NCBI RefSeq assembly: GCF_014202315.1 | Contig: NZ_JACHGN010000006.1 | Location: forward strand, 496,001 to 560,000 | DNA length: 64,000 nucleotides | Direction: 5' to 3' | Source of the DNA: Thermocatellispora tengchongensis | Lineage (GTDB): Bacteria; Actinomycetota; Actinomycetes; Streptosporangiales; Streptosporangiaceae | The notes under the pieces: generated by a model | The model's input: only the letters and a program-made list of their open reading frames with translations | What the model was told of the DNA's origin: nothing | The model's database searches: none | Part shown: one piece after another, positions 37,687-61,218 of the stretch | How the letters are laid out: each line of letters starts with the position of its first letter | Position numbering within the stretch: the stretch's first letter is position 1 | Translations under genes and position numbers: made by a program

Positions 37687-39300
37687 TCATCTGCCGGCCG
37701 CGTGCTCGGCCGCGAGCTCGTCGGCGATCTTCGCGCCGCCACCGTCGCGCCACCTGCGCGCCGCGGCGTCCCAGGTGGACATGCCGGCTCGCCCGGTGAT
37801 GATCGCATTGACCGCGTCGGCCAGCTCCCGGGTGAGCCGTTCGCCGTCGGCGTCCATCGTGGGCGAGGCCAGGCCGTCGGCGGGGTTGGCGATGCCCTTG
37901 CTCAGCAAGGTGTTCTGGATGTCGAAGGCGTGACGAACCTGCTGTTCCTTACCGGGAATGAAGATGTATTCGGGCGCGCAGCAGATGTACCGGCCGATCG
38001 GCAGGCTGTTGCGGTTCTCGGCGGCGGCCGGCTCGGTCGGCTGGAGCAGGCCGTCGCCCCGGGTGAAGTGCACGCCCTCGACACCGTGGTTGACCAGCTC
38101 GTGTTCCTTGGTGCCGAACGGGGCGGCGAGGAAGTCGCAGATGCGCAGCAGCATCTTGACGCGCTCGGGCGACGCCTTCTTGAAGACCGTGTATCCGAAC
38201 AGTCCGGTGCCCAGCCAGTGGCCGTCACCGTAGGACAGCGCGAGATCGGTGGTGAAGCGGTCGCCGACCCGATCGATGTAGATGCCGTTGGCGTAGTTCA
38301 TGAAGTTGCCCATGACCGCGCCGACGTTCTGGCTGTAGTACAGGTTCATGATGTCGGCGAGGGTGCCGGTCTTCGAGGACGGGTGGTAGTAGCCGGCCTG
38401 GAAGCACTTCGCGGCGAACTCGATCGCCGCGCGGTACTCCTCGGTGGCGCTCATGTGAACGAACGCGCCGCCTTCCAGCCTCCACTGCTGCGGCGCCTTG
38501 TGCGACGCCGCGTGGTACGGCATGCCGAGGTCCTCGCTGACCGCGCCGAATCCGTACATCCGGCCGCCGGTGACCGCCTTCAGGGACTCGAAGAACTGCT
38601 CGGCGGTCCACTGGAGGGGCGCGCCGGCGGCGTCGTAGGCGGTGCGGTTGATGTGCAGCGCGTTGCCGGCCCGCGCCCGGCTCAGCGGGACGCCGTAGAT
38701 CTTCCCGCCGATGCGGCCCATCGACTGCCAGCTCACCGTGGGGAGGTTGGCCAGGTTGGGATAGTCGGCGACGCGGTTTCCGCCGACGTAGTCGGAGATG
38801 TCCGCGCAGGAGGCGGCGATGAACTCGCGCACTCGCGGCACCGGCATGATCATGATGATGTCGGGCAGGTCGTTCGACGCCATCAAGGTGGTGAGCTTGG
38901 ACTTGTACTCGGAGATGGGCACCAGGTTGAGCTTGATGTTCACTCCCAACGCCTGGTTGATCGCCTGCCAGAGGCGGTTGCTCTCCACGGGCGCCGGCGG
39001 CGGGCCGTAGGTGGGTATGAAGGCCGTGACGTCGGAGCCGTCGCCGGGTTGGTCCGCCGACCGGCTGAGCGTCGCCGGGTACCGGAAGAACGCGTCCAGC
39101 GCGCCGTCCACGCCGGCCTTGAGGTCGGGGGCCGGGCCCTCCAGTCGCCGGTGGACCGGCCAGGGCGTGCGGTCCCTGCCGGTGTTGCTCACCGAACCCG
39201 TGCCGCCGGACGCGCACCCGGTCAGCGACGGCACTCCCCAGGCGGCGAGTGACGCGATTCCCGCGAATCTGAGCAGGGTGCGGCGATCGATTGCGGACAT
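37687..39300 (-). CDS. Sugar ABC transporter substrate-binding lipoprotein (importer 1)
   Basis: 537 residues. The N-terminus combines a twin-arginine-like DRRTLLRF with a lipobox LTGC (Cys29), so the protein should be exported and lipid-anchored. The size and body (LPDIIMIMPVP; GVPLSRARAGNALHINR; FGTKEHELVNHGVEGVHFT) match large oligosaccharide-binding proteins used with LplB/LplC-type permeases (YtcQ/LipO group). Third gene of a three-gene operon with the two permeases. Its likely ligand is an acidic or branched oligosaccharide, judging from the neighbouring lyases. Confidence 0.9.
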   Translation of the reverse strand: MSAIDRRTLLRFAGIASLAAWGVPSLTGCASGGTGSVSNTGRDRTPWPVHRRLEGPAPDLKAGVDGALDAFFRYPATLSRSADQPGDGSDVTAFIPTYGPPPAPVESNRLWQAINQALGVNIKLNLVPISEYKSKLTTLMASNDLPDIIMIMPVPRVREFIAASCADISDYVGGNRVADYPNLANLPTVSWQSMGRIGGKIYGVPLSRARAGNALHINRTAYDAAGAPLQWTAEQFFESLKAVTGGRMYGFGAVSEDLGMPYHAASHKAPQQWRLEGGAFVHMSATEEYRAAIEFAAKCFQAGYYHPSSKTGTLADIMNLYYSQNVGAVMGNFMNYANGIYIDRVGDRFTTDLALSYGDGHWLGTGLFGYTVFKKASPERVKMLLRICDFLAAPFGTKEHELVNHGVEGVHFTRGDGLLQPTEPAAAENRNSLPIGRYICCAPEYIFIPGKEQQVRHAFDIQNTLLSKGIANPADGLASPTMDADGERLTRELADAVNAIITGRAGMSTWDAAARRWRDGGGAKIADELAAEHAAGR

Positions 39301-39332
39301 GGTGAAACCTCGTTCCGCTTGAGAGGGATTGA

Positions 39333-40238
39333 TCAGGACTTGATGGCTCCCGTGAGGACGCCCTTGACGAAGTGCCGCTGGATGAACGGGTAGACGATCA
39401 CGATGGGCAGCATGGCGAGCACCAGGACCGCCATCTGAATGGAGTTCTCCGCGTTCACCCGTGTCTCGGCCGAGGCGATGGAGCCGGCCAGGGGCGCTCC
39501 GTCGAGGACGTACTGCCGCAGCACCACCTGGATCGGCCACATGGTGGAGTCGTTGAGGTAGAGGATCGCGTGGAAGAAGGAGTTCCAGTAGGCGACCGCG
39601 TAGAACAGGCCGACCACCGCGATGGCGGCCTTGGACAGGGGCGCGATGACGCGCACCAGGATGCGCAGCTCGCCCGCGCCGTCGATCCGCGCGGCCTCGT
39701 AGAGATCTTCCGGGATGTTCTGAAAGAACCCCCGCAACACGATCAGGTTGAACGCGTTGACGAGCACCGGCAGCACGAGCGCGGCGTACGTGTCCAGCAG
39801 CCCCAGGGACTGCACGACGAGATAGGACGGGATCATCCCGGGTGTGAACAGGAACGTGAGGAGGACCATCAGCAGGATCGGCCTGCCGCCGGGCAGGCGG
39901 GGCCGTGCCAGCGCGTAGGCCATGGCGATCGTGCAGGTCAGCGACAGGGCGGTGCCGATCAACGTGACGCCGGCGCTCACCAGGGTCGCCCGGGTCACCA
40001 CCCCGCCGGAGAGGATGTCCTGGTACGCCTGGAAGGTGATGGAGTCCGGCCACACCACCCAGCCGCCCTTGTCGAGCACCTCTTCCTGCGGAGCGAGGCT
40101 GGTCGAGACCACTACCAGGCACGGGAACAGCACCAGCGCCGTGATGACGGTCAGCGCGACCGCCTTGGCCGCGACCACCAACGGGCCGGGCGCCGGCATC
40201 CACGCCGGCCGTGAGGTCCGCCTGATCGTCGTGTTCAC
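39333..40238 (-). CDS. Sugar ABC transporter permease, LplC/MalG type (importer 1)
   Basis: 301 residues with six membrane helices. The EAA loop is AARIDGAGELRILVRVIAPL and the C-terminus RHFVKGVLTGAIKS is typical of the family. The GTG start overlaps the stop of the other permease gene (GTGA). It forms the membrane channel with the 40235-41206 product and depends on an ATPase encoded elsewhere. Confidence 0.93.
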   Translation of the reverse strand: MNTTIRRTSRPAWMPAPGPLVVAAKAVALTVITALVLFPCLVVVSTSLAPQEEVLDKGGWVVWPDSITFQAYQDILSGGVVTRATLVSAGVTLIGTALSLTCTIAMAYALARPRLPGGRPILLMVLLTFLFTPGMIPSYLVVQSLGLLDTYAALVLPVLVNAFNLIVLRGFFQNIPEDLYEAARIDGAGELRILVRVIAPLSKAAIAVVGLFYAVAYWNSFFHAILYLNDSTMWPIQVVLRQYVLDGAPLAGSIASAETRVNAENSIQMAVLVLAMLPIVIVYPFIQRHFVKGVLTGAIKS

Positions 40239-41206
40239 CGGTACACCCCTTGCTCTCCCATGCGGTGGGCGACCCGGTTGGCGGCATACACCAGCACCGC
40301 GCCCACGATCCCTTTGAGCAGGCCGACCGCTGTCGCGTAGCCCCAGTCGCCGCCGAGCACGCCGGCGTAGTAGACGAAGGTGTCGAGCACCTCGGCGGCC
40401 TCCGGCCCGACCGCGTTGCGCTGCAGGAAGATCTGCTCGAAGCCGACCGACAGGATGTCGCCGAGCTTGAGGATGAACAGCAACACGATGATGGGCCGGA
40501 TGGCGGGCAGTGTGACGTGCCACAGCCGGCGCCACCAGCCGGCGCCGTCGATGGCCGACGCCTCGTAGAGATGCTCGTCCACGGTGTGCAGCGCGGCCAG
40601 GAAGATGATGGTCCCCCAGCCGCAGTCCTTCCAGATGATCTGCGCCACCACGAGCGGCTTGAACGCGTCGGGATTGCCGATGATGTCGACGGTGCGCAGG
40701 CCGTTGTCCGCGAGCCAGGTGTTGAGCAGACCGGCGCCGCCGAGGATCTCCTGGAACAGGGCGACGACGATCACCCATGAGATGAAGTGCGGCAGGTACA
40801 CGACGCTCTGCACGAAGCGGCGCAGCACGTCATGGGTGACGCTGTGCAGCAGCAGGGCCAGCGCGAGCGGCGCGGGGAAGTAGAACACCAGCTGCAGCGC
40901 CGATATCGCCAGGGTGTTGCCCACCGCGGACCACACCGCGGGATCGGCCAGCAGCCGGATGAAGTGGGACAAGCCCGTCCACTTCGATTCGGTGAGGCCG
41001 AGAAACGGCACGTAGTCCTGGAAGGCGATCGCGTACCCCGTGAGCGCGCCGTAATGGAAGATCAGGAAGTACAGCAGGCCGGGCGCCACGAGCACCAGCG
41101 ACATCGCGTCCCGGCGGAGCCGGCGTCGCGTCCCCGGCTCGCGGCGGCGCCCGGCCGCCGGACCGGCGGCCGGCATAGTTTCCCGGGGTCCCCGCAGCGT
41201 CGTCAT
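40235..41206 (-). CDS. Sugar ABC transporter permease, LplB type (importer 1)
   Basis: 323 residues with an Arg/Pro-rich N-terminal tail and six membrane helices. The EAA loop is ASAIDGAGWWRRLWHVTLP and the C-terminus reads RMGEQGVYR, the hallmark of the LplB group. First gene of the importer 1 operon, divergent from the AraC gene at 41320, which probably activates it. Confidence 0.93.
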   Translation of the reverse strand: MTTLRGPRETMPAAGPAAGRRREPGTRRRLRRDAMSLVLVAPGLLYFLIFHYGALTGYAIAFQDYVPFLGLTESKWTGLSHFIRLLADPAVWSAVGNTLAISALQLVFYFPAPLALALLLHSVTHDVLRRFVQSVVYLPHFISWVIVVALFQEILGGAGLLNTWLADNGLRTVDIIGNPDAFKPLVVAQIIWKDCGWGTIIFLAALHTVDEHLYEASAIDGAGWWRRLWHVTLPAIRPIIVLLFILKLGDILSVGFEQIFLQRNAVGPEAAEVLDTFVYYAGVLGGDWGYATAVGLLKGIVGAVLVYAANRVAHRMGEQGVYR

Positions 41207-41306
41207 GCCCGCTCCGGCACTGGGTCTTCTCCGGCCTCGTCGCGGCTGCTCACAGGAGGGAAGCGCGGTTGAGCCGGGCTCACTGGAGAGATCGGGTGTG
41301 GAATGC

Positions 41307-41312
41307 TACGTT
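41307..41312 (+). promoter_or_regulatory. Leaderless -10 box of the AraC gene
   Basis: TACGTT, 7 nt before the ATG at 41320; no ribosome site in between. Confidence 0.45.
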
Positions 41313-41319
41313 GCCGCCG

Positions 41320-42141
41320 ATGGGACAAGGTTCGGCCGTGGAGATCGCGGCGGATTTCTACGACTTCGTGGTCACCGACATCGGTTATGTCATCGACCGC
41401 GCCCCCGACCCCGGCTGGCGGGTGACCGCGTTCGCCAATCCCCGCCTGCACATCCTCGCCGTCGCCGTCACCGGCAAGGCCGGCTACGAGATCGGCGGGG
41501 TGCCGTACGCGATCCGGCCGGGCGACGTCATCTTCATGCCCAAGGGCCTGCCGCACACCGGCCGGAGCGACGCGGCCGACCCCTGGCGATTCATCTCCGT
41601 CGGGTTCGACGTCCGCAGCGACACCGGCGACGTGACGGCCCAGCTCGGCACGCTTCCCCATGTGACCCGCGATGCGTCGCCGCACGGCGCTGCGGCGGCC
41701 TTCGCCGAGCTCCACACGGCGTGGAACGACAGGTCGCCCGGCTACCTCGTGCAGATCCGCGGCATCGTCTCCGGCATCATGCACGGCCTGATCCGCGCGC
41801 ACAGCCTGCCGCACCTGCGCCACCCGCACACCAGGCGCATCATGGCGGTGACGGAGATGATCAGGGAGAACCACCATCGGACCTTCTCCGTCGCCGAGCT
41901 CGCGGCCGTCGCGGGGTTGAGCCCGTCGCACTTCCGCGCGATGTTCAAACGGCTCACCGGGCAGACCGTCGTCGAGTACCAGCAGGGGGTGAGGATAGGC
42001 AAGGCCACGGAGCTGCTGCTCAGCGGCGAGTGCAACGTCTCGGAGGCGGCGCTGCGGGCCGGCTTCCGCGATGTGTACTACTTCAGCCGGCTGTTCAAGA
42101 AGGTGACCGGCACCAATCCGTCGGAGCTCACCAGAGGTTGA
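41320..42141 (+). CDS. AraC-family transcriptional regulator with cupin sensor
   Basis: 273 residues. A cupin-type sugar-sensing domain (about 20-130, GDVIFMPKGLPHTGR) precedes two helix-turn-helix motifs (about 170-270, FSVAELAAVAGLSPSHFRAM; VSEAALRAGFRDVYYFSRLF). It lies between the importer 1 operon (divergent) and the RraA-to-heparinase operon (convergent, overlapping its 3' end by 14 bp), and most likely activates uptake when the oligosaccharide is present. Confidence 0.92.
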   Translation: MGQGSAVEIAADFYDFVVTDIGYVIDRAPDPGWRVTAFANPRLHILAVAVTGKAGYEIGGVPYAIRPGDVIFMPKGLPHTGRSDAADPWRFISVGFDVRSDTGDVTAQLGTLPHVTRDASPHGAAAAFAELHTAWNDRSPGYLVQIRGIVSGIMHGLIRAHSLPHLRHPHTRRIMAVTEMIRENHHRTFSVAELAAVAGLSPSHFRAMFKRLTGQTVVEYQQGVRIGKATELLLSGECNVSEAALRAGFRDVYYFSRLFKKVTGTNPSELTRG

Positions 42142-44122
42142 TGGTGGCATCGGTCACGCCTTCCACCGCGATCCCCGTTTCGGTGAGTGACACGGCCAGA
42201 GCGGTCCCGCCGGGCCCGGTCACATGGCAGCCATCGGGCCTCGCGGTCACCTGCCAGGCCGTGATCCCCGGTTCGGTGTCCATCACGATGGCGTACAGGG
42301 CGGTATGACGTGTCTCGTGGCCGGCACCCGCGAAGGTATGGATCTCCGCGGAACCTTCGCGGCCTTGCCCGCGCCGGTTGGGCCGGGGATCGTACACGTC
42401 GTGCATGTAGCCCCAGGACCGGAGCAGCTCGTACCGGGCGTCACCGGCACACCGGGTCAGGGTCACCGCGCTGCCGCCGCGCCGGAACGCCATCGCGCCC
42501 TCGGCGGTGGATCGCGTCCGAAGTGCGCCGTCGCGGTCGTTCAGCACGAAATGGGTGTCCACGGCCACCGGCTCGTCCGCTTCGATCCGGTCGGCGACCA
42601 CGACGACGTGTGGCAGTACGGCGATCCAGGTGCGCTCCGCTCTCCGGATCGGCGGTCCGTACGCGGCCGCGGCGTCGCAGCGCACCACGGTCAGGCCGCC
42701 GTCCTGTTCGAGCAGGACGCGCCTGTTCAACGGCGGGTGGCCGGGGCCGCGTGGCCGGGTGTGCTGCCAGAGCGTCGTCGCGTCCGGCAGCCGGAACGTC
42801 CAGGTGTTGTGCATGGCGGAGGTGCTGGAGACCGCCTGGGTGGTGAGGCGGTAGCAGCAGTGGCCGGGATCGGCGAAGAACCGCTCGCCCCGATGGCTGA
42901 GGATGAAGCTCGCTTCGTCGGCGTGCCGGTGGATGGCGGTCCGCAGCCGGCCCGTACCGCCTTGGACGCCGAGGACCGTGAGGGCTTGCGGCCAGGTGTC
43001 GCGGATCGCGACGGTGCCGCAGGCGAAACCGCGGGTGGTGGGCTCCTTCGCCTCCTCGGGAGTGACGGGGCCGGCCGCGTCCGGCAGCAGCGTCAGGCTT
43101 CGCCACTGCACCTGGTTGAAGAAGCCGAAGCCACCGCCGTCGAGCGGCTCCAGCGCCACGTCGTGATAGGTGACGTCGAACAACCACCGGGCCAGCCCCG
43201 CCTCGCGGGGGTGGGAGTGCCGTGCCCGTGCCGCGATGTGCAGCAGCAGGTCGGCGCTCGGCCGGAAGAGGGCGCTGGAGTCGCCGAAGTTCAGCGACCT
43301 GGGGTACCGTCCCTCACCCCAGCCCGCCAGCGGCTTGACGTACAGCAGTGAGTGCACGGCCCACGGGACACAGCGGGTGTAGCACGACAGGTCCAGGCGC
43401 TCGTGCAGCGACGGGTCGTGCCGCAGCAGCACCTCGCGCAGGTGGGCCAGGTGCGCGCCGGCATAGCTCCAGTACTGCAACGACTCGCCGTAACTGTCCT
43501 CCTCGAACGCCCCGGCCGCCACCGCATGGCGCTCCACGGTCCGCGCCACCGCTTCGGCGTCGCCCAGGAACGCCGACACGGTGCCGTACCCGTCGAGCAA
43601 CACCATGAACCAGTTGCACGGGTCCGCCACGCGGAGGTCCAGGGCGCGTCGGCACGGCGCCTGGCAGTTGTCCCGCAGCACGCGGCGGATTCGGTCGTGC
43701 TCGCCGGCGGTGAACAGGTCCGGGCAGAGCGAGACCGCTTCCGCGACGGCCAGCCCGATGTGGGCGGTCTCCAGAGTCCCCAGCGACGGTGACGTGCGCG
43801 GCCGGAAGTCCGGGCCGATCCAGTCATCGGCCGGCCGGTCGCAGATCGCGAGGACCTCGGTGCGCAGCCACCGCCCGTACGCCTCGGCCTCCTCGGGCTC
43901 CTCCTCGGCCTCGCTGAGGCGATGGGCGAAGGCGACGTCGCACAGCCGCTGGGAGACGACGTGCCACCAGCCCGCCGGCTCATCGCGCGCGACGACCCCG
44001 GGCCGCCGGACGAGCCGTTCGGCGCGCCGGCGCAGTGCCTGCCGGATTTCGGCGGCCTTGCCGCCGCGGGCCACCTCGTCGCGCACGCGCTGCACGTCCT
44101 GGCCGGTGACGAGGCTGATCAT
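42128..44122 (-). CDS. Heparinase II/III-family polysaccharide or oligouronide lyase
   Basis: 664 residues, ATG with GAGGAG upstream and overlapping the previous stop. An alpha-toroid N-terminal half (WNFMV-like CNWFMVLLDGYG; EDSYGESLQYWSYAGAHL, with candidate catalytic Tyr residues) is followed by the C-terminal beta-sandwich signature IHRHADEASFILSHRGERFF and ADPGHC (about 395-420), where the His is part of the metal/catalytic site in heparinase II/III relatives. There is no signal peptide, so it should act on imported oligosaccharides, cutting next to uronic acids. The exact linkage cannot be told. Confidence 0.87.
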   Translation of the reverse strand: MISLVTGQDVQRVRDEVARGGKAAEIRQALRRRAERLVRRPGVVARDEPAGWWHVVSQRLCDVAFAHRLSEAEEEPEEAEAYGRWLRTEVLAICDRPADDWIGPDFRPRTSPSLGTLETAHIGLAVAEAVSLCPDLFTAGEHDRIRRVLRDNCQAPCRRALDLRVADPCNWFMVLLDGYGTVSAFLGDAEAVARTVERHAVAAGAFEEDSYGESLQYWSYAGAHLAHLREVLLRHDPSLHERLDLSCYTRCVPWAVHSLLYVKPLAGWGEGRYPRSLNFGDSSALFRPSADLLLHIAARARHSHPREAGLARWLFDVTYHDVALEPLDGGGFGFFNQVQWRSLTLLPDAAGPVTPEEAKEPTTRGFACGTVAIRDTWPQALTVLGVQGGTGRLRTAIHRHADEASFILSHRGERFFADPGHCCYRLTTQAVSSTSAMHNTWTFRLPDATTLWQHTRPRGPGHPPLNRRVLLEQDGGLTVVRCDAAAAYGPPIRRAERTWIAVLPHVVVVADRIEADEPVAVDTHFVLNDRDGALRTRSTAEGAMAFRRGGSAVTLTRCAGDARYELLRSWGYMHDVYDPRPNRRGQGREGSAEIHTFAGAGHETRHTALYAIVMDTEPGITAWQVTARPDGCHVTGPGGTALAVSLTETGIAVEGVTDATINLW

Positions 44123-45192
44123 CGTGACTCCTCGGCCGCGGCCCGCAGCGACACATCGGCGATGCCGGCCAGGTGGGCTTCGACCATCGCCAGCATCAGC
44201 GGGCCGCAGCCGTGGGGCTCGTCCCGGTAGGGCAGGCACAAGGTCATGTACGCCGCGACGGTGCCCTTCTCGTCTCCCTCGCCCGGGCACAGCGTCCCGG
44301 GGCAACTGCGCTCGGTGGAGAAGTCGTCGTTGACGCACACCCGCGCGAGCCCTTCGACGCCGCGCCGGAACGCCGGGGCGTAGGTGGCCGGGTCGAGCAG
44401 GCCGTGACGGATGCCGACCCCGATGCCGTAAAGGATCAGACCGGTGCCGGAGGACTCCTCATACGACAGCGGCTGCGGGATCTCCTGGCGCCACAGGCCA
44501 CGCCGGGACTGATGCGGCAGCAGCGCGGCGGACAGGCCGGTGAACCGCTTCGTCACCTCCGCACGGTGCGCGGACTCCGGGGGCAGTCCACGGGCCAGTT
44601 CGGCGAGGGCGAAGTACCCCCAGCCGTTGCCGCGCGACCAATGATCCCGCGAATACGCACCCGGCGCCACGAAGCCGCGGCACTGGTGCAGCAGGCCGTA
44701 CTCCGGATCCAGCAACTCGTCATGCAGCCGGACGGCCTGACACACCGCCTCGGCGAGGTAGCGCTCGTCCCGGAGGGCGAGCCCCGCGTACAGCAGGTAC
44801 GGAGAGACGGCCATCGCTGTATCGATCCAGATCTTCTCGGCGTCCCTGTCGCAGGGGTGCTTCATGATCCCCGCAGGGTCGCGCGGCGCGGTGAGCATCT
44901 CCTCGGCGTACTCGCGCACGACCCCGATCCGGTGCGGCATGCGGCCTTCGGCGACCAGGAACGCCTGCGGGATCCCGCCGATGGTGTAGTTCGGGAAGTT
45001 GTAGACGGGATGGGTGATCTCATCGGGGAAGCGGCTGAGGATCGCCTCACACCGCCGCGTCGACGCCTCGTCCTCGCCGGCCTGCGCGGCCCGGGCGAGG
45101 GCGTATATCGCCAGCAGCCCGTAATAGTGCTTGACCTCGGCGAGGGACGCGTAGTGATCGTAAAGGCCGTAGGCGACATCCAGCGGCTTCAT
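44119..45192 (-). CDS. Unsaturated uronyl hydrolase, GH88/GH105 family
   Basis: 357 residues, no signal peptide. The (alpha/alpha)6-barrel motifs of GH105/GH88 are visible: WIDTAMAVSPYLLYAG (about 125, carrying a candidate catalytic Asp), HWSRGNGWGYFALAELA and SYEESSGTGLILYGI. These enzymes hydrate the 4,5-double bond left by polysaccharide lyases and release a keto-uronic acid. It is embedded between the SDR and heparinase genes with ATGA overlaps on both sides, so it is made together with a lyase, as expected for its role. Confidence 0.9.
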   Translation of the reverse strand: MKPLDVAYGLYDHYASLAEVKHYYGLLAIYALARAAQAGEDEASTRRCEAILSRFPDEITHPVYNFPNYTIGGIPQAFLVAEGRMPHRIGVVREYAEEMLTAPRDPAGIMKHPCDRDAEKIWIDTAMAVSPYLLYAGLALRDERYLAEAVCQAVRLHDELLDPEYGLLHQCRGFVAPGAYSRDHWSRGNGWGYFALAELARGLPPESAHRAEVTKRFTGLSAALLPHQSRRGLWRQEIPQPLSYEESSGTGLILYGIGVGIRHGLLDPATYAPAFRRGVEGLARVCVNDDFSTERSCPGTLCPGEGDEKGTVAAYMTLCLPYRDEPHGCGPLMLAMVEAHLAGIADVSLRAAAEESR

Positions 45193-53049: not shown

Positions 53050-54873
53050 ATGCTGGAAATCGACCTTCGCGGCGACCTGTACGCCGACAAGGTGCACGGA
53101 TGCTGGCTCGGCAAGAACGCCGGCGGCACGCTCGGCGCGCCCGTCGAGCAACTGTACGGCCGGCCGGAACCGCTGGACGTGCGCTGGTATCCCGAGCTGC
53201 GCGAGGGCGGCATCCCCAACGACGACCTGGAGTTACAGCTCATCTGGCTGCTGGCGCTGGAAGAGGTGGGACCCGCGCTCACCGCTCGGGACCTGGCCCG
53301 CTACTGGCTCGACCATGTCGGCTACAACTTCGACGAGTACGGCATGGCCAAGGCCAACCTCAGGCTGGGCCTGGAGCCGCCGCTGACCGGCAGTCACAAC
53401 AACTGGTTCGCCGACTGCATGGGCTGCCCGATCCGCGCCGAGATCTGGGCCTGCGTCGCGCCGGGCGCGCCCAGGACCGCCGCCCGCTACGCCTTCCAGG
53501 ACGCCATCCTGGACCACGCCGGGGGCGAGTCGGTCTACGGCGAGCTGTTCAACGCCGCGCTGGAGTCGGCCGCGTTCGTGGTCGGCGACAGACGCAAGCT
53601 CGTCGATATCGGCCTGTCCTACGTGCCCGAGTCCAGCAGGACGGCGGCGGCCATCCGCGCGGCGGTGGCGGGCTTCGAGGCGGGGCTGGATCGGCTGGAG
53701 ACCCGGCGGCGGGTCATCGCCGCCGCGCCGCACCACGTGGCCCAGTACTCCCCGATCAACCTCGGTTTCCAGGTCATCGGCCTGCTGTACGGCGACGACT
53801 TCGGCGACGCGCTGTGCACCACGGTCAACTGCGGCTACGACACCGACTCCTCGGGCGCGGCGGTCGGCGCCTTCCTGGGCATCCTGGCCGGACGGTCCGG
53901 ACTCCCCGAGAAGTGGACCGCGCCGCTCGGCGAGCAGATCGCCACCAACGAGTCGTGGGGCGGCGTGCGTGGCCTGGCCGGGCTCGTTCCGGACACCCTG
54001 ACCGAGCTCACCGAGCGGATCCGGGCCGTCGCGCTGCGGCTGAACGGCCAGGTGGTACGGACGCCGGAGGCCGACCTCTACGCCGACTCCTCCATCGCCG
54101 ACCTGTGGAACCGCAGCCCGACCACCGTCGTGCACTCCGGGCCCGACGTGCACGTCTCCGTCGCCCACGGTGACGGCCCGGTAGTGATCCCCGGCCAGGT
54201 CAAGGAGTTGACCACCGTCGTGCGCAACACGCGCCGCGTGCCGATCACCGTCCGGGCGGCGCTCGCCGTACCCGACGGCTGGAAGGCGCCCGGCCGGCAG
54301 GAGGTGGAGCTGCCGGCCGGCGCGAGCGCGACCCTGACCTGGCAGGTGGAGGCGCCGGACCGGACGGTGCTCGACGTGAGCAACCGGCTCTTCCTGAGCC
54401 TGTCCCCGGCCGGCAGGCCGGAGCCTCCCGCCGTGCCGATCGTGCTGCTCGGCGCCTCCGCCTACCGGGTCAGCGGCCAGGACCGGAGCTGGCGCGAGGT
54501 GTACGCGACCGGCAACGCGGTGCCGGTGGATCCCGGCGTGCGGTATCTGCAGACCTTCGCGCACGCGCCGCGGGCCGTGGACGCCTGGCTCGCGGTCGAG
54601 GCCACCTGCGCCGTACGGCTGTGGGCCAACGGCGCGCTGGTGGCCGAGGCGCCCGGCCCACGGGAGATCCGGCCCTGCCACCGCGGCACGCCCGGCTCGT
54701 CGGGGCCGGTCGGCTTGCGCGAGGGCTGGAACGAAATCCGCATCGAGCTCGTCCGCGGCGAGGGGGCGCCGCCGGCCGAATGCCATGTCCTGTTCGCCAC
54801 CGATGACCGTTTCCGCGCCGCGCTCACCGAGCTCGGCCGAACCCGCTTCCCGTGGGATCTCACCAGGAGGTAA
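53050..54873 (+). CDS. ADP-ribosylglycohydrolase-fold protein with C-terminal beta domains
   Basis: 607 residues, ATG with GAGGAG upstream, no signal peptide. Residues 5-320 have the DraG-type metal sites: PNDDLELQ (about 56-63) and CGYDTDSSGAAVGAFLG (about 260), which hold two Mg ions in ADP-ribosyl-acceptor hydrolases. A beta-rich part follows (from about 360, including a filamin/Ig-like segment and a jelly-roll-like end). DraG-fold proteins are repeatedly found in sugar operons, where they may act on N-glycosidic or sugar-phosphate compounds, not on proteins. First gene of a six-gene operon; true substrate unknown. Confidence 0.85.
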   Translation: MLEIDLRGDLYADKVHGCWLGKNAGGTLGAPVEQLYGRPEPLDVRWYPELREGGIPNDDLELQLIWLLALEEVGPALTARDLARYWLDHVGYNFDEYGMAKANLRLGLEPPLTGSHNNWFADCMGCPIRAEIWACVAPGAPRTAARYAFQDAILDHAGGESVYGELFNAALESAAFVVGDRRKLVDIGLSYVPESSRTAAAIRAAVAGFEAGLDRLETRRRVIAAAPHHVAQYSPINLGFQVIGLLYGDDFGDALCTTVNCGYDTDSSGAAVGAFLGILAGRSGLPEKWTAPLGEQIATNESWGGVRGLAGLVPDTLTELTERIRAVALRLNGQVVRTPEADLYADSSIADLWNRSPTTVVHSGPDVHVSVAHGDGPVVIPGQVKELTTVVRNTRRVPITVRAALAVPDGWKAPGRQEVELPAGASATLTWQVEAPDRTVLDVSNRLFLSLSPAGRPEPPAVPIVLLGASAYRVSGQDRSWREVYATGNAVPVDPGVRYLQTFAHAPRAVDAWLAVEATCAVRLWANGALVAEAPGPREIRPCHRGTPGSSGPVGLREGWNEIRIELVRGEGAPPAECHVLFATDDRFRAALTELGRTRFPWDLTRR

Positions 54874-54879: not shown

Positions 54880-56520
54880 ATGTCCCCCCACGTGACCCGC
54901 CGCTCCCTCATCCGGGGCCTGGGTGGCGCCGCGCTCTTCGCGGCCCTGCCGGGCCCGCTGCTGGCCGCCTGTTCCACCCAGCCCGCCGGAACCTCGGCGC
55001 CGTCCTCGAACGCCAAGGTCAGGTTGCCGTCCCACCTTCCGTACGCGGGGGTCAAGCCGGACCTGGCGCCCACCACGAACGGCGTGGACGCCGGGTATCT
55101 GACCTACCCGGCCGATCCGGCCGCGGCCATCACGCAGCCGCCGGGCCGGGGCGGCACCGTCACCGCCATGACGCTCACCTACGGCGCCGTGCCGCCGGCC
55201 GTCGGCCAGAACGCCTACTGGCAGGAACTCAACAAGCGCCTGGGCGCCACCCTGAACCTCAACATCGTCCCCAACGCGGACTACGCCAACAAGCTGACCA
55301 CGGTGGTGGCGGGAGGGGACCTGCCGGACATGGTGTTCTTCTTCGCCGCGTTGAAGCCACCGCAGTTCCCGGCGCTCCTCCGCGCGAAATTTCAGGATTT
55401 GTCGGAATTCTTGGGGGGTGACGCCGTCAAGGAGTACCCCTTCCTGGCCAACATCCCCACACCGAGCTGGCGCAACGTCACCTTCAACGGCGGGATCTAC
55501 GGCATCCCCGTGCCGCGAGGCATCGTCGGGACGGTCATGTTCGTCCGCGACGACCTCATCCGCGAGAAAGGGCTGCAGCGCCAGCCGGGGAGCTTCGAGG
55601 AGTTCCGCGAGCTGTGCAAGGCCCTCACCGACACCAAGAGAAACCGCTGGGCGCTCGGCCAGCCGGACACCCTGCTGCCCTTCCTGGAGCAGATGAGCGG
55701 TGCGCCCAACATGTGGCAGGTCGAGAACGGCACGTTCACCCACCACTACGAGACCGAGCAGGCCAAGCAGGCGATCAGCGACATGCTCACGCTGTTCAAG
55801 GACGGCGTGTTCCACCCCGACTCGATCGGTTCCGACACCGTCCAGGTCAAGCAGTGGCTCCAGGGCGGCTCCATCGCCGTCAACCGGGACGGCTTCGCCG
55901 CGTGGGCGAGCAACGCGCCCGCGGGAGTCACCGACCCGGAGAACTACGTGGGCGCGATCCTGCCTCCCGGCCGCGACGGCGGCCAGGGCGTGCACTGGGC
56001 GGGCGGCGGCGCGCTGGGCCTCATCTCCCTGCGCAAGGCCGGCAAGGAGCGGATCGCCGAACTGCTGCGCATCTGCGACTGGCTGGCGGCGCCGTTCGGC
56101 ACGGCCGAGCACAGGTTCCGCAAGTACGGCGTGCAGGGAGTGCACCACGAGCCGAGCGGCTCCGATCTGACGCTCACCGAGCTGGGCAAGACGGAGGTCA
56201 CGGTGCCGATCAACTACCTCACCGACTCGCCGCAGGTGCTCTACACGCCCGGCATGCCGGCCCTCACCAAGACCCAGCACGCCTTCCAGCAGCAGCTCGT
56301 GGCGCTGGCCGTACCCGACCCCTCGATCGGGCTGTTCTCCGAGACGCTCAACAGCAAGCTCGCCCAACTGGACAAGCACTACACCGACACGCTGCGCGAC
56401 ATCTACGCAGGACGCAAGCCCTTCTCCGCCTGGGACGAAGCGGTCCGCGAGTGGCGCAGCAGGGGCGGCGACCAGATCAAGGCCGAGTTCGCCAAGGCGT
56501 ATGAGGAGGCCAACGGATGA
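54880..56520 (+). CDS. Sugar ABC transporter substrate-binding lipoprotein (importer 2)
   Basis: 546 residues, ATG after a strong AGGAGGT. A TRRSLIRG twin-arginine-like start and the lipobox LAAC (Cys31) mark a lipoprotein. The body is of the same large LplA/LipO type as the importer 1 protein, with shared blocks (LLRICDWLAAPFGTAEH; YGVQGVHHEPSG) but clearly diverged, so the two importers probably take up related oligosaccharides. Its stop overlaps the GH5 start by ATGA. Confidence 0.9.
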   Translation: MSPHVTRRSLIRGLGGAALFAALPGPLLAACSTQPAGTSAPSSNAKVRLPSHLPYAGVKPDLAPTTNGVDAGYLTYPADPAAAITQPPGRGGTVTAMTLTYGAVPPAVGQNAYWQELNKRLGATLNLNIVPNADYANKLTTVVAGGDLPDMVFFFAALKPPQFPALLRAKFQDLSEFLGGDAVKEYPFLANIPTPSWRNVTFNGGIYGIPVPRGIVGTVMFVRDDLIREKGLQRQPGSFEEFRELCKALTDTKRNRWALGQPDTLLPFLEQMSGAPNMWQVENGTFTHHYETEQAKQAISDMLTLFKDGVFHPDSIGSDTVQVKQWLQGGSIAVNRDGFAAWASNAPAGVTDPENYVGAILPPGRDGGQGVHWAGGGALGLISLRKAGKERIAELLRICDWLAAPFGTAEHRFRKYGVQGVHHEPSGSDLTLTELGKTEVTVPINYLTDSPQVLYTPGMPALTKTQHAFQQQLVALAVPDPSIGLFSETLNSKLAQLDKHYTDTLRDIYAGRKPFSAWDEAVREWRSRGGDQIKAEFAKAYEEANG

Positions 56521-58406
56521 CCGGCACGAGCCGGCGGCGCTTCCTCCAGCTCAGCGGCGCCGTCGCCGTCGGCGGTGCCCTCGCCCACCAGACCGGCACC
56601 GCGTACGCGGCTCCGCTGCGCGAGGGCTTCCACCCGCCCCGGATCCGCGGCGTCAACTGCGTACGCGTCAGCGAGTTCGGCCGGGCCAGGAACCGGTTCG
56701 GCGTCAACGCGGTCCGCTACTACCTCAACCCGCAGTCGGTGGCGACATCGCGTGGCACCACGGTGGCACAGGCATGGCAGTCGCAGTTGGACTCGCTGGA
56801 GTCGGCCGTGCGGGAGGCGGCCCGGCAGGGCCTGTGGAGCGTCATCGACCTGCACGAGCCGCCCAACCCCGACCGGATCGCGGCGCAGCGGCCGGAGTTC
56901 TGGGCCGACGACGCCAACCTGGACGTCCTGGTCAACGCGTGGCGTGACATCGTCGAGCGCGTCACGCCGTATCGCGCCTACATCTGGGGCTACGACCTGC
57001 TCAACGAGCCGCACAACCGCGCCGAACTGCCCCTGGGCGCGAGCAAGTGGCCCGCCTGGGCGCAGGCCATCACGGACGACATCCGGACCCGCGACACCGC
57101 CACTCCCATCGTGCTGGAACCGGGACCGGGAGCGCTGCCGCGGGGTTTCATCGAGAACGAGTGGATCGACGCCGGACCCGGCTACCCGGTCCTGTACCAG
57201 GGTGACTTCCCGCTGCTGAACGACCCCAAGGTCATCTACAGCCCGCACGTCTACGACCCCCACTCCTACACCCACCAGGGCCTGAGCACCTTCAACAAGG
57301 CGCCGGCCGCCACTGACTGGCCCGACAGAAGGACGTACCCGGGCCTCCTCAAGGAGCCCTACGGCGACGCGCACTGGGACAAGGACCGCCTCAGGGAACT
57401 GCTCAAGCCGATACGCAGGATCCAGTCGAAGTACCGGGTGCCGATCTACGTCGGCGAGTACAGCGCCATTCGCTGGGCCCCCGGCGCGGCCGGCTACATC
57501 AACGACCTCACGGAGCTGTTCGAGGAGTACGGCTGGAGCTGGACCTACCACGCCTTCACCGAGTGGCACGGCTGGGACGTCGAGTACACCGAGCAGATGA
57601 CCAGCGATGCCAACCGGCTGGCCGCGAAGGCCACGCAGCCCACGGACCGGGAGCTGATCCTCAAGGGCTACCTCGCGCGCAACGCCTTCCCCGACCCCGC
57701 CGCCCTGCCCGCCCCCAGCCTCCTGGCCAACGGAGACTTCACCAGGGACGCCGACGCCGACGGCCTGGCCGACGGGTGGAGCAAGGGGAGCCAGGCGACG
57801 GTCACGCTCGCCGGCGGCGTTCAGCGGGTGTCCTGCCCGGCGGCGGGCAAGGGCGTCGACCAGGAGTGGGTCACGATCAGCGACGAGAACCGCTACAGGC
57901 TCACGGCACGCTTCCGCGTGGACGGTCCGGGCTCGGTCCGCTTCTGGACCTACGCCGTCGATGACGCCTACGGCCACGCCGGCAGCAAGATCATCGCGGA
58001 CGCGTCGCCCACCGGCCAGTACACCACCCGGCAGCTCGAGTTCGTGCCTCCGGCGGGCGCCGCCAGGATCAGCGTCCGCTTCTGGGCCAACAGCGCCACC
58101 GCCTTCCTGCTCGACCAGGCGGAGCTGGTGGATCTCGGCCCCGACCCGGCCCGGCGCCCGCCGGAGACGACGGCCGTGGTCACCGGCGCCGATCACGTCC
58201 GCTTCACCGCCGAGGCGTACAACGGCGCGGCGGTGGCCCGGACCGAGTACCGCATCGTCGGCCAGGGCTCGGGCTGGCAGGCAGTACCGGATGGCGGGCT
58301 CACGATCAACCCCGGCGACGCCACGGTCGTCGGCTACCGCTCGATCGACACGGCCGGGATCGTGGAGCCGGCCAAGGCGATCGTCATGGGCTCGCACGCC
58401 CGCTGA
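56517..58406 (+). CDS. Secreted GH5-family glycoside hydrolase
   Basis: 629 residues with a twin-arginine signal (SRRRFLQLSG, cleavage after TAYA), so it is exported folded. The TIM barrel (about 40-395) has acid/base Glu in LLNEPHNR (about 163) and nucleophile Glu in YVGEYSAIRW (about 313). After the barrel lie a beta-sandwich resembling a carbohydrate-binding module (about 405-545) and a short Ig-like end. GH5 enzymes cut beta-linked glucans and mannans. Here it is the only secreted hydrolase of the island and is co-translated with the binding protein of importer 2, so it probably makes the oligosaccharides that are taken up. Confidence 0.9.
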   Translation: MTGTSRRRFLQLSGAVAVGGALAHQTGTAYAAPLREGFHPPRIRGVNCVRVSEFGRARNRFGVNAVRYYLNPQSVATSRGTTVAQAWQSQLDSLESAVREAARQGLWSVIDLHEPPNPDRIAAQRPEFWADDANLDVLVNAWRDIVERVTPYRAYIWGYDLLNEPHNRAELPLGASKWPAWAQAITDDIRTRDTATPIVLEPGPGALPRGFIENEWIDAGPGYPVLYQGDFPLLNDPKVIYSPHVYDPHSYTHQGLSTFNKAPAATDWPDRRTYPGLLKEPYGDAHWDKDRLRELLKPIRRIQSKYRVPIYVGEYSAIRWAPGAAGYINDLTELFEEYGWSWTYHAFTEWHGWDVEYTEQMTSDANRLAAKATQPTDRELILKGYLARNAFPDPAALPAPSLLANGDFTRDADADGLADGWSKGSQATVTLAGGVQRVSCPAAGKGVDQEWVTISDENRYRLTARFRVDGPGSVRFWTYAVDDAYGHAGSKIIADASPTGQYTTRQLEFVPPAGAARISVRFWANSATAFLLDQAELVDLGPDPARRPPETTAVVTGADHVRFTAEAYNGAAVARTEYRIVGQGSGWQAVPDGGLTINPGDATVVGYRSIDTAGIVEPAKAIVMGSHAR

Positions 58407-58427
58407 CCGTTCACGATGGAGGGTTGG

Positions 58428-59363
58428 ATGTCCGTCACGCACCGGATGCCGCGGCGCGGCGCGTTGCGCAGGGATCGCTTCCTGCTCTGGCTCGGCCTGC
58501 CGGGCCTGGCGGTGATCGTGCTGTTCCACTACGTGCCGCTGCTCGGCAACGTCATCGCGTTCAAGGACTACCAGCCCTTCATCGGCATCCTGGAATCGCC
58601 GTGGGTGGGGCTGGAGAACTTCCGGGTGATCTTCAACGGCGACCCGGACTTCCTCAACGCGCTGGCCAACACGCTGATCATCTCCTTCATCCAGGTCGTG
58701 CTGGTGTTCCCGGTGCCGATCGCGCTGGCGCTGCTGCTGAACTCGCTGCTGTCGGAACGGCTCAAGCGCGCCGTGCAGTCGGTGCTCTACCTGCCGCACT
58801 TCATGTCCTGGGTGATCGTCGTGGCCGTCTTCCAGCAGATGCTCGGCAACGCGGGCCTGCTCAACACCTGGCTGCGGGCCCGCGGGCTGGAGGGCTTCCA
58901 GATCATCGGCGATCCGTCGCTGTTCAAGGCGCTGATCACCTCACAGGTGATCTGGAAGGACGCCGGGTGGGGCACGATCCTCTTCCTGGCCGCCCTCTCG
59001 CGGGTGGACCTGCACCTGTACGAGGCCGCCGCCGTGGACGGCGCCTCGCGCGGGCGGCAACTGTGGCACATCACCCTGCCCGGCATCAGGGGCGTCATCG
59101 TGCTGCTGCTCATACTCAAGCTGGGCGACGTGCTCACCGTCGGCTTCGAGCAGATCATCCTCCAGCAGCGGGCCGTCGGCCTGGAAGCCTCTGAGGTCCT
59201 GGACACCTACGTCTACACCAACGGCGTCCTGGGCGGGAACTGGGGCGTCTCCGCCGCGGTGGGCCTGGTCAAGGGTCTCGTGGGGGTGGCCATGGTGCTC
59301 GGCGCCAACAAGATCGCGCACATGCTCGGGGAGCGCGGTGTGTACTCCAAGGAGGCTCGATGA
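58428..59363 (+). CDS. Sugar ABC transporter permease, LplB type (importer 2)
   Basis: 311 residues; the second ATG is chosen for the GGAGGG upstream. Six membrane helices, EAA loop AAAVDGASRGRQLWHITLPG, C-terminal MLGERGVYSKEAR. It pairs with the next gene product, resembles the importer 1 permease at 40235 throughout, and overlaps the next gene by ATGA. Confidence 0.93.
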   Translation: MSVTHRMPRRGALRRDRFLLWLGLPGLAVIVLFHYVPLLGNVIAFKDYQPFIGILESPWVGLENFRVIFNGDPDFLNALANTLIISFIQVVLVFPVPIALALLLNSLLSERLKRAVQSVLYLPHFMSWVIVVAVFQQMLGNAGLLNTWLRARGLEGFQIIGDPSLFKALITSQVIWKDAGWGTILFLAALSRVDLHLYEAAAVDGASRGRQLWHITLPGIRGVIVLLLILKLGDVLTVGFEQIILQQRAVGLEASEVLDTYVYTNGVLGGNWGVSAAVGLVKGLVGVAMVLGANKIAHMLGERGVYSKEAR

Positions 59364-60283
59364 GCATCATCCTCGCTGCCGGGCGGCGATCCCGCCGCGC
59401 CGCCGTCACCGGTATCGTCCCGCCCTCGCTGCCGGTACGCGCGCTCAAGGGCGTGGTGCTGCTCGTGTGCTGCGCCGTCGTGATCCTGCCCTTCATGTCG
59501 GTGATCTCCACGAGCCTGGCCGGCCAGCAGGAGATCAGCGAGGCGGGCGGCCTGGTGCTCTGGCCGCGGCAGCCCAGCCTGGACGCCTACCGCGCCATCT
59601 TCGCCGGGGGAGTGGTCACCCGGGCGCTGCTGGTCTCGATCGGGATCACCGTCGTCGGCTCGCTGCTGTCGCTCACGGCCACGGCCTGCCTGGCCTACTC
59701 GCTGTCCCGGCCCGGCAGCTTCGCCCACCGGCCGCTGCTGCTGACGGTGCTCTTCACGCTGCTCTTCTCGCCGGGCATCATCCCGAGCTACCTGATCGTC
59801 AAGCAGCTCGGCCTGCTCGACTCCTACTGGTCGCTGATCCTGCCCGTGCTGGTGAACGGCTTCAACGTCGTCGTCATGCGGGCGTTCTTCATGGACCTGC
59901 CGCGGGAGCTGATCGACTCGGCCCGCATCGACGGCGCCGGGGAGCTGCAGATCATGCTCAGGGTCGTGGTGCCCCTGTCCAAGGCGGTGCTCGCGGTCGT
60001 CGGCCTGTTCTACGCCGTCGCCTACTGGAACAGCTTCTTCACCGCGATGCTCTACATCAACGACACCAGCAAGTGGCCGTTGCAGCTCGTGCTGCGGACC
60101 TACGTGGTGGACAACGCCGCGCTCGGAGCCGACCAGCTCAACCTCGCCGCCGAGCTGCCTCCGCCGCAGCAGGCCCTCCAGATGGCCATCCTCGTCGTCA
60201 GCCTCGTGCCGATCCTGCTCGTGTACCCCTTCCTGCAGCGTCACTTCGCCAAGGGCGTGCTCCTCGGGGCGGTGAAGGGGTGA
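59360..60283 (+). CDS. Sugar ABC transporter permease, LplC/MalG type (importer 2)
   Basis: 307 residues, six membrane helices, EAA loop SARIDGAGELQIMLRVVVPL and the C-terminus RHFAKGVLLGAVKG. The stop overlaps the GTG of the dehydrogenase gene (GTGA). As in importer 1, no ATPase gene is linked, so a shared MsiK-like ATPase encoded elsewhere is likely. Confidence 0.93.
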   Translation: MSIILAAGRRSRRAAVTGIVPPSLPVRALKGVVLLVCCAVVILPFMSVISTSLAGQQEISEAGGLVLWPRQPSLDAYRAIFAGGVVTRALLVSIGITVVGSLLSLTATACLAYSLSRPGSFAHRPLLLTVLFTLLFSPGIIPSYLIVKQLGLLDSYWSLILPVLVNGFNVVVMRAFFMDLPRELIDSARIDGAGELQIMLRVVVPLSKAVLAVVGLFYAVAYWNSFFTAMLYINDTSKWPLQLVLRTYVVDNAALGADQLNLAAELPPPQQALQMAILVVSLVPILLVYPFLQRHFAKGVLLGAVKG

Positions 60284-61218
60284 AGACGTTCCTCGCCATG
60301 AACGAGGTGACCGTGCGCCGCCTCTTCGACGAGCGTTCCTACGCCACCCTGCGCTCGCTGACCACCCTGGTCGCGACTCCCGGCGAGGCCGAGATCATGA
60401 TCACCACGTGGGGCAGCCCGCCCGTGGACGTGGCCGCGGCCCCGCGGGTCCGCGCCGTCTTCCACGGCGCCGGCTCGATCCGCGGCCTGATATCCGACGC
60501 CTGCTGGGACCGCGGCATCGTCGTCGTGTCCGCCGCCGCGGCCAACGCCGTACCCGTCGCGGAGTTCACCCTCGCGTCGATCGTGTACGCGGGCAAGCGC
60601 ATCCCCTGGTACACCCGCACGTACGCCGCCTGTCCCGGCCGGGCGTGGGAAGGCCGCGTCCATGTGCCCTCGGCCTCCAACCACCGCCGCGTCGTCGGGC
60701 TCGTCGGCCTGTCGCGGGTAGGGGCCCGGGTCCTGGAACTGCTGCGCCCCTTCGACTTCGAGGTGCTCGTCGCCGATCCCTATGCCGTCCCCGCTCCCGG
60801 CTTCACCCTGGCCGGCCTGGACGAGCTGCTACGGCGCAGCGACATCGTCTCCCTCCACGCCCCGCTGCTGCCCGAGACCCGGCACATGATCGACGCCCGT
60901 CGTCTCGCCCTGATGCCCGACGGCGCCACCCTCATCAACACCGCCCGCGGCGGGCTGGTGGACACCGACGCCCTCGTACGCGAGCTGGTCACCGGTCGCC
61001 TCCACGCCATCCTCGACGTCACCGACCCGGAGCCGCTCCCGCCGGACTCGCCGCTGTTCGGGCTGCCCAACGTCCAGCTCACGCCGCACATCAGCGGATC
61101 GCTCGGCACCGAGACCCAGCGCCTCGGGGCTCTCGTCGTCGCCGAGCTGAAGCGCTATCTCACCGGGCGGCCGCTGCTGCATCAGGTGCGGCGGGAGGAT
61201 CTCGGCAGGCTCGCCTGA
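60280..61218 (+). CDS. D-isomer-specific 2-hydroxyacid dehydrogenase
   Basis: 312 residues from a GTG with GAAGG upstream. The NAD-binding motif GLVGLSRVGARVLE is near 139-152. The catalytic Arg (NTARGG), Glu (DVTDPEPL) and His (LTPHISGS) are all present. The last gene of the importer 2 operon, it probably reduces or oxidises a 2-keto/hydroxy acid derived from the uronic acid. Substrate not evident. Confidence 0.88.
   Translation: MKTFLAMNEVTVRRLFDERSYATLRSLTTLVATPGEAEIMITTWGSPPVDVAAAPRVRAVFHGAGSIRGLISDACWDRGIVVVSAAAANAVPVAEFTLASIVYAGKRIPWYTRTYAACPGRAWEGRVHVPSASNHRRVVGLVGLSRVGARVLELLRPFDFEVLVADPYAVPAPGFTLAGLDELLRRSDIVSLHAPLLPETRHMIDARRLALMPDGATLINTARGGLVDTDALVRELVTGRLHAILDVTDPEPLPPDSPLFGLPNVQLTPHISGSLGTETQRLGALVVAELKRYLTGRPLLHQVRREDLGRLA

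Follow-up and report, generated by a model that had tools for sequence, protein, structure and literature searches.

A two-module locus of Thermocatellispora tengchongensis as a candidate system for an acidic heteropolysaccharide

Which polysaccharide is served by a gene cluster whose list of enzymes suggests xanthan and whose lyase does not group with xanthan lyases? The question arises for an island of 17 genes at positions 37687–61218 of a 64,000-nucleotide stretch of contig NZ_JACHGN010000006.1 (hereafter, the window), inside the 11.65-Mb genome of the actinomycete Thermocatellispora tengchongensis. An earlier note on this DNA had proposed a xanthan-type utilization island. The genes that it named are all present by Pfam (a PL8 lyase, a GH88/105 hydrolase, GH38, GH5, two importers, two regulators, a heparinase II/III-like protein, an RraA-family protein and a short-chain dehydrogenase/reductase, SDR), and we add an ADP-ribosylglycohydrolase-family protein (ADPRGH), a D-2-hydroxyacid dehydrogenase and a paired 18-bp repeat (Table 1). 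With modest confidence, we read the island as a composite of two modules for an acidic heteropolysaccharide containing glucuronate and α-mannose. Module U (37687–46648) comprises importer 1 and the AraC, heparinase II/III, GH105-like, SDR and RraA genes; module X (46815–61218) comprises the PL8, GH38 and GntR/LacI genes and, divergently, those for ADPRGH, a second solute-binding protein (SBP2), GH5, permeases and the hydroxyacid dehydrogenase. Xanthan is only a candidate for the polymer because of the clade of the lyase, the low similarity of the hydrolase to 2ahf, an unsaturated glucuronyl hydrolase, the lack of recognized GH3, GH9 or GH94 genes in the cluster and the independence of module U.

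Family placement of the PL8 lyase

The lyase contains all three domains of its family above the Pfam cut-off (Lyase_8_N, Lyase_8 and Lyase_8_C; E 1.4e-24, 5.8e-66 and 4.4e-10). The previously proposed Asn130, His179 and Tyr188 are borne out, and Arg242 joins them: the same letters stand in all nine other PL8 rows aligned, and across an alignment of 21 rows Tyr188 and Arg242 never vary and Asn130 and His179 hardly do. They align with what we take to be N175, H225, Y234 and R288 of 1cb8, the chondroitinase AC of Flavobacterium heparinum, in a provisional numbering. In a phmmer search of the PDB, 1cb8 matches residues 30–623 at 298 bits, versus at most 146 bits, in three pieces, for xanthan lyases and 124 bits for the Streptomyces entry 2wco.

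In a maximum-likelihood tree of 31 rows, a branch with 100/100 support parts eight rows (the xanthan lyases 6f2p and 2e24, lyases of Arthrobacter and Streptomyces and the second PL8 that this genome encodes) from 23 rows that include the window PL8, 1cb8 and sequences from six phyla. A larger tree of 39 rows also separates the window PL8 from the xanthan lyases (91/100); the 31 rows are that set minus L016 (wrong reading frame, very long branch), L023, L056, L062, L066, L072, L081 and L084. L013 and L018 (no frame), L045, the PL8 of Ruminococcaceae UCG13 (R.UCG13) and PL8a of Paenibacillus taichungensis stood outside both trees. The structure predicted from the 21-row alignment (mean pLDDT 91.8) matches 1cb8 best, with Z 48.6 and a root-mean-square deviation of 2.1 over 616 aligned residues, ahead of 2wda (Z 43.2), 2x03 (Z 43.1) and the xanthan lyase 1x1h (Z 42.2), and Foldseek likewise ranks 1cb8 first.

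The window PL8 thus belongs on the chondroitinase-AC side of the family, and a grouping with the xanthan lyases compared is contradicted by tree, bit score and fold. The earlier note had itself named placement of PL8 and GH5 with enzymes of unrelated substrates as the result that would speak against xanthan; the lyase half of that result is what we find. The clade does not, however, fix the substrate, nor does it prove a chondroitinase, because a fold search also places the alginate lyase 7r2x within PL8 and identity to 1cb8 is only 30–33%. Despite the shared family half, fold and aligned catalytic residues, the window enzyme differs from 1cb8 in being leaderless and in belonging to an actinomycete subclade (three Nonomuraea rows and one from genome G140; 100/100) that holds no characterized member in the tree.

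This placement brings in glycosaminoglycans, with the PL8 as a chondroitin or hyaluronan oligosaccharide lyase and the GH88-family enzyme acting on unsaturated disaccharides. Sequence, tree and fold all name chondroitinase AC as the nearest characterized PL8. The genome also encodes another PL8 (contig C16, L046 8758–11070), which has a Tat-like leader, belongs to the other half of the family and lies nearest to 2wco and 2wda, the latter titled a chondroitin AC lyase (752 bits to 2wco, 479 to an Arthrobacter lyase, 352 to xanthan lyase 6f2p and 114 to 1cb8). We nonetheless consider glycosaminoglycan use distinctly improbable, because no sulfatase or hexosaminidase was recognized among the 16 of 17 genes scanned with Pfam, and GH38 and GH5 would be left unexplained; the alginate lyase in the family and the low identity to 1cb8 argue in the same direction. 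The earlier note had found this reading inadequate as well, and we agree. In another genome (G118, L037 6754–13583), a PL8 that likewise falls on the other side of the family and has a Tat-like leader stands beside an importer whose permeases are 52–58% identical to those of the window.

Recurrence of module U and the fate of unsaturated uronate

The naming of the module U hydrolase as GH88/105 was pitched at the right level. The Pfam model Glyco_hydro_88 spans both families, and the PDB matches do the same: 4q88 (60 bits), 3k11 (58 bits), 3qwt, named GH105 (55 bits), and 5noa, ‘Family 88 glycosyl hydrolase’ (54 bits). The unsaturated glucuronyl hydrolase 2ahf scores 23 bits.

A gap of 166 bases separates module U from the PL8 gene. 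Module U recurs in part in four other actinomycete genomes, in each of which 34–40 kb were examined. In the family to which G1218 belongs, the GH105-like protein was found in 4 of 22 genomes. In G1218 itself, homologs of AraC (51%), the GH105-like protein (67%), SDR (48%), RraA (65%) and the heparinase II/III-like protein (53%) stand together. G1148 has the GH105-like protein (68%), SDR (52%), RraA (66%) and AraC (52%), and G1122 the GH105-like protein (67%), SDR (52%) and RraA (65%). G1203 combines AraC (52%), SDR (56%), RraA (63%) and the GH105-like protein (56%) with importer 1 (permA1 78%, permB1 71%, SBP1 47%). The order RraA-SDR-GH105 is that of the window in three of the four loci, with the SDR gene inverted in G1203.

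The enzymes beside these genes are different. On none of the four stretches was a homolog of PL8 or GH38 found, and the window GH5 has no match there over its whole length, just a patch of 91 residues in G1218. Instead, G1218 carries a different GH5 with a Tat-like leader (236 bits to endoglucanase 4lx4), G1148 a GH78 rhamnosidase, CBM9 and β-helix proteins, and G1122 CBM9 and β-helix proteins; G1203 has a weak melibiase-type match and, farther away, a β-helix protein. From this partial recurrence with other enzymes we read 37687–46648 as holding a portable cassette for unsaturated uronates, as predicted from its gene families. The earlier placement of the GH105-like, SDR, RraA and heparinase II/III genes within one xanthan-type island is not supported, since they form a separate module that accompanies other enzymes in other actinomycetes. 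Among the matches listed in an open literature library, no title described this gene layout, and none the combination of RraA, heparinase and GH105. Three of the four loci also have, close to module U, proteins of 391–399 amino acids with similar N-termini (L123 9012–10187, L125 8496–9671 and L127 15181–16380); the two that were scanned gave no Pfam match.

A GH88/105 enzyme releases an unsaturated uronate, which becomes 4-deoxy-5-keto-uronate (DEHU). In the window, the SDR and RraA-family genes adjoin the gene of the predicted uronate-releasing hydrolase, and the trio is kept together in all four other loci. Because the uronate freed by the hydrolase would become DEHU, this neighborhood fits an oxidative DEHU path. 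According to one study, the SDR FlRed of Flavobacterium UMI-01 oxidizes DEHU to 2-keto-3-deoxy-glucarate, which the RraA-family enzyme FlDet converts to α-ketoglutarate semialdehyde (PMC8563752). By family and description, the two systems are alike in having an SDR and an RraA-family enzyme placed after the step that frees an unsaturated uronate; the Flavobacterium genes serve an alginate-derived substrate from separate regions as far as that source describes them, whereas those of the window lie beside the hydrolase gene (PMC8563752). The nearest plasmid relatives of the window RraA (49%; Runella and Microvirga) stand among genes for the use of sugar acids (lactonase, dehydratase and SDR), a context which suggests that an aldolase role would also suit.

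The heparinase II/III-like protein is rare. It has the C-terminal Pfam domain only, with no PDB match at E <= 0.01. Homologs were found in 1 of 200 family genomes (its own), in 2 of 345 class genomes (its own and G1218), in one plasmid record, and in none of 247 genomes of the phylum Bacteroidota at E <= 1e-20, in a search run without a positive control. The Spirosoma sp. KNUC1025 plasmid NZ_CP087141.1 carries in succession homologs of SDR (37%; an unannotated match spread over two frames), of RraA (49%) and, split, of heparinase II/III (35%), beside SusCD. This Spirosoma polysaccharide utilization locus, with SDR, RraA and two heparinase II/III genes, also encodes GH39/GH5-like and GH38C-like proteins.

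Module X and the candidate polymers

The divergent gap of 262 bases between the GntR/LacI and ADPRGH genes holds GACAGGTTAGCAGGTTAT at 52792 and GACAGGTTAGGCGGTTAT at 52847, direct repeats 55 bases apart. With up to three mismatches, a longer repeat pattern has two sites in the window versus 0.03 in shuffled sequences, the pattern having been drawn from these same sites. With at most one mismatch, AGGTTAGNNGGTTAT has two sites in the whole genome, versus none for its reversed control. The pair is a candidate operator that would link GntR-GH38-PL8 with ADPRGH-SBP2-GH5-permeases-dehydrogenase. A scan for promoters and terminators gave nothing above chance. Module X is echoed in part on a plasmid of Streptomyces sp. 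NBC_01237, where a GntR homolog (46%) and a GH38 homolog (65%) are about 4 kb apart; the module as a whole was found in no other genome examined, nor was the locus conserved as a whole in any.

As judged by a simple motif and hydropathy check rather than a trained predictor, GH5 is the only enzyme with a Tat-type leader. Both solute-binding proteins combine a Tat motif with a lipobox, and no export signal was seen in PL8, GH38, the GH105-like and heparinase II/III-like proteins, RraA, ADPRGH or the hydroxyacid dehydrogenase. The earlier proposal that GH5 alone is secreted, so that the polymer would be cut outside and trimmed inside, agrees with this check. Against the PDB, SBP1 and SBP2 gave only weak matches, without a hint of substrate.

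A GH5 with a Tat-type leader motif is present, and an endo-xanthanase role for it is putative: the nearest solved relatives, 8b3y, 8ag9 and 8anx (157–159 bits), are named ‘Endoglucanase’, and we saw no xanthanase assignment among them. One paper’s table lists 8AG9 under Thermogutta terrifontis, and a study of this bacterium proposes that xanthan is attacked by GH5 enzymes, of which 8AG9 may be one. Homologs of the window GH5 occur in 1 of 396 phylum genomes (its own; E <= 1e-30), in 2 of 26 PL8-locus genomes (E <= 1e-12; covering 27 of 41 loci, L067 left out) and in 4 of 199 genomes in the phylum of a planctomycete. A tblastn search with the window proteins around five GH5 homologs matched nothing but GH5 itself, apart from a weak GntR match in L105. 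A GH5 structure predicted from the single sequence was set aside at a mean pLDDT of 37.

For GH38, too, the family assignment stands (Pfam E 4.9e-90; 780 bits to 7ufs), and its value as a sign of xanthan is small. Relatives 50–65% identical reside on actinomycete plasmids; among three annotated plasmid neighborhoods, one lacks sugar genes and two contain other sugar importers and glycosidases. With relatives in such varied settings, GH38 says little about xanthan.

How well, then, does xanthan account for the island? As the natural substrate, it would make GH5 an endo-xanthanase. PL8 would take the outer mannose off pentasaccharides after their import, the unsaturated glucuronate would fall to the GH105-like enzyme and the inner mannose to GH38, and a β-glucosidase encoded elsewhere would finish the job. 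The four activities match the structure of xanthan, and the layout resembles two described systems. By gene family, the R.UCG13 system shares an endo-acting GH5, a PL8 that works on oligosaccharides and not on polymer, a uronyl hydrolase, GH38 and ABC importer genes; it has GH88, GH94, two GH38 and two esterases, whereas the window has one GH38 and no recognized GH94 or esterase, and adds heparinase II/III, SDR, RraA, ADPRGH and a second importer (PMC10881899). P. taichungensis I5 shares a PL8 without a leader, believed there to work on oligosaccharides of xanthan after import, a uronyl hydrolase, GH38 and two binding proteins. It relies on a distant gene for the glucose disaccharide step and has GH9, GH92, two GH88 and another PL8, which is secreted, in contrast to the GH5 and chondroitinase-AC-side PL8 of the window (PMC12827396). 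As far as their source describes them, the loci of Microbacterium XT11 and Paenarthrobacter ilicis 6C likewise contain PL8, GH38, ABC importers and a hydroxyacid dehydrogenase near ABC permeases, and differ in having GH9, GH3, a secreted PL8 and no GH88, where the window has GH5, a leaderless PL8 and a GH88-family enzyme (PMC12772297). The window dehydrogenase is 46% identical to the product of an Arthrobacter plasmid gene that has ABC permeases on one side and PL8 on the other, and three GH9 genes lie elsewhere in the genome.

Against xanthan stand the 100/100 branch between the window PL8 and both xanthan lyases tested, and the weak match of the hydrolase to 2ahf. No GH3, GH9, GH94 or esterase was recognized in the cluster by Pfam, which leaves room for a distant gene, and the window GH5 is not tied to RuGH5a, an enzyme outside our sequence comparison. 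The proposed xanthan-type set is partly supported: as a list it matches the R.UCG13 description, and the clade of its lyase and the distance of its hydrolase from 2ahf speak against it. As the natural substrate, xanthan is a candidate that we regard as unlikely.

PL8, GH105 and GH38 would also dismantle chains with 4-linked glucuronic acid (GlcA) on α-mannose. The polymer might thus be a glucuronomannan from a plant gum or an alga, a fungal glycan of the glucuronoxylomannan type or another bacterial exopolysaccharide, a reading that we hold to be possible, if doubtful. The heparinase II/III-like protein and second importer hint at uronates in more than one type of linkage, and the GH78, CBM9 and β-helix partners of module U in G1148 and G1122 show that module with different company. 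On the other side, none of the 17 genes points to xylose, fucose or rhamnose, and the GH5 relatives are named endoglucanases.

Table 1. Genes and candidate operator copies of the island (window coordinates)
Feature	Coordinates	Strand	Evidence
SBP1, Tat/lipobox solute-binding protein, importer 1, module U	37687..39300	-	SBP_bac_1 E 7.8e-9; leader; 47% to G1203 SBP
permB1, ABC sugar permease, module U	39333..40238	-	BPD_transp_1; 71% in G1203
permA1, ABC sugar permease, module U	40235..41206	-	BPD_transp_1; 78% in G1203
AraC-family regulator, module U	41269..42141	+	HTH_18 and AraC_binding; 51-52% in G1218, G1148, G1203
Heparinase II/III-like, leaderless, putative second oligosaccharide lyase, module U	42128..44122	-	Hepar_II_III_C E 1.8e-10; 53% in G1218; ~35% on Spirosoma plasmid
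GH88-family, GH105-like unsaturated uronyl hydrolase (predicted), leaderless, module U	44119..45192	-	Glyco_hydro_88 E 1.7e-38; PDB 4q88, 3k11, 3qwt, 5noa
SDR oxidoreductase, putative DEHU dehydrogenase/reductase, module U	45189..45941	-	adh_short E 5.4e-47; precedent FlRed, PMC8563752
RraA-family, 237 aa, putative keto-deoxy-sugar-acid dehydratase/decarboxylase or aldolase, module U	45935..46648	-	RraA-like E 3.6e-35; precedent FlDet, PMC8563752; 63-66% in four actinomycete loci
PL8 lyase, leaderless, chondroitinase-AC-side clade, module X	46815..48695	-	Pfam; PDB 1cb8 298 bits; tree; fold Z 48.6; catalytic residues
GH38 α-mannosidase (predicted), leaderless, module X	48692..51685	-	GH38 domains; PDB 7ufs 780 bits
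Regulator, GntR DNA-binding and LacI-type effector domain, module X	51708..52787	-	GntR E 4.3e-13; Peripla_BP_4 E 6.5e-16
Candidate operator copy 1, GACAGGTTAGCAGGTTAT	52792..52809	+	Repeat search
Candidate operator copy 2, GACAGGTTAGGCGGTTAT	52847..52864	+	Repeat search
ADP-ribosylglycohydrolase-family (ADPRGH) and NEW3 domain, module X	53050..54873	+	ADP_ribosyl_GH E 5e-39; NPCBM_assoc E 1e-6
SBP2, Tat/lipobox solute-binding protein, importer 2, module X	54880..56520	+	SBP_bac_1 E 9.7e-18; leader
GH5, Tat leader, C-terminal extension, module X	56517..58406	+	Cellulase E 6.9e-16; PDB 8b3y 159 bits; leader
permA2, ABC sugar permease, module X	58416..59363	+	BPD_transp_1; 60% to permA1
permB2, ABC sugar permease, module X	59360..60283	+	57% to permB1
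D-2-hydroxyacid dehydrogenase-family, module X	60280..61218	+	2-Hacid_dh_C E 8.3e-48; 46% to Arthrobacter plasmid gene

All 17 genes are open frames with a third-position GC of 0.89–0.97, typical of a high-GC actinomycete; the start of the SDR gene is provisional, and permB2, the gene outside the Pfam scan, was placed by BLAST to permB1. The GC content of the island is 0.70–0.71, versus 0.735 in the flanks of the window (the right flank spans only 2.8 kb). The ADPRGH-NEW3 fusion heads the importer-2 operon, and a weak homolog lies 9 kb from the Spirosoma run of SDR, RraA and heparinase II/III genes.

A proposed route and its meaning

From the gene families, the leaders assigned by motif, the residues, predicted fold and clade of PL8, the recurrence of module U and the uniqueness of the repeat, we infer every reaction, substrate and regulatory step of the following route. 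The Tat-secreted GH5 would cut the backbone outside the cell, and the binding-protein-dependent ABC importers would take in charged oligosaccharides. In the cytosol, PL8 would eliminate the residue linked to O4 of GlcA, leaving an unsaturated uronate for the GH105-like enzyme to remove, and GH38 would remove α-mannose. The freed DEHU would pass to SDR and RraA, probably by the oxidative path through 2-keto-3-deoxy-glucarate to α-ketoglutarate semialdehyde; reduction followed by aldol cleavage would be an alternative. Module X is probably controlled through the paired 18-bp repeat.

Several observations weigh against a single two-module system of this kind, beginning with the relatives of the lyase. 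PL8 matches occur in 59 of 200 family genomes (E <= 1e-20; the genus is represented in the collection by one genome, which leaves no genus-level comparison). Apart from the window gene itself, identity exceeds 40% in only two of the 200, G140 (66%) and G195 (45%), and in their stretches the other window genes were not found beside PL8, except for a weak dehydrogenase match in G140. We searched 41 named PL8 loci, several on short contigs, with the window proteins at E <= 1e-8: homologs of GH38, GH5, heparinase II/III, RraA, ADPRGH and the importers lay near PL8 in none, a GH105 homolog in four (L055, L063, L066 and L068) and SDR matches in three (L050, L067 and L068). The nearest actinomycete relatives of the lyase lack the other 16 genes nearby, one SDR match in L067 apart; because of this, the role of PL8 may not be tied to the polymer of this island. 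Module U contains no copy of the 18-bp repeat, so shared control of U and X finds no support there. Since no locus with both modules was found among the genomes examined, their cooperation is argued from adjacency only. The substrate of the hydrolase (GlcA or galacturonic acid, and the partner sugar) cannot be read from its sequence, heparinase II/III and ADPRGH fit no assigned step, and two further RraA relatives (40% and 36%) stand among amino-acid and peptide genes.

Within the composite, two-module reading, we tentatively entertain a more specific possibility. A leaderless PL8 of its own subclade, with its own specificity for GlcA-oligosaccharides, and a second, heparinase II/III-like lyase would form a two-lyase cytosolic route. 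This route would feed a portable, kinase-free oxidative cassette of GH105, SDR and RraA that actinomycetes combine with different depolymerases, here for a polymer without a described pathway.

For the annotation of such loci, a parts list of PL8, a GH88-family enzyme, GH38 and GH5 is insufficient to call xanthan when the clade of the lyase disagrees. If the proposed route is correct, it would give a functional setting to the leaderless PL8 subclade on the chondroitinase-AC side, whose other members examined stand without these partners. The GH105-SDR-RraA trio, often together with AraC, would then be a compact marker for acidic-polysaccharide loci in actinomycetes, whatever depolymerase accompanies it.

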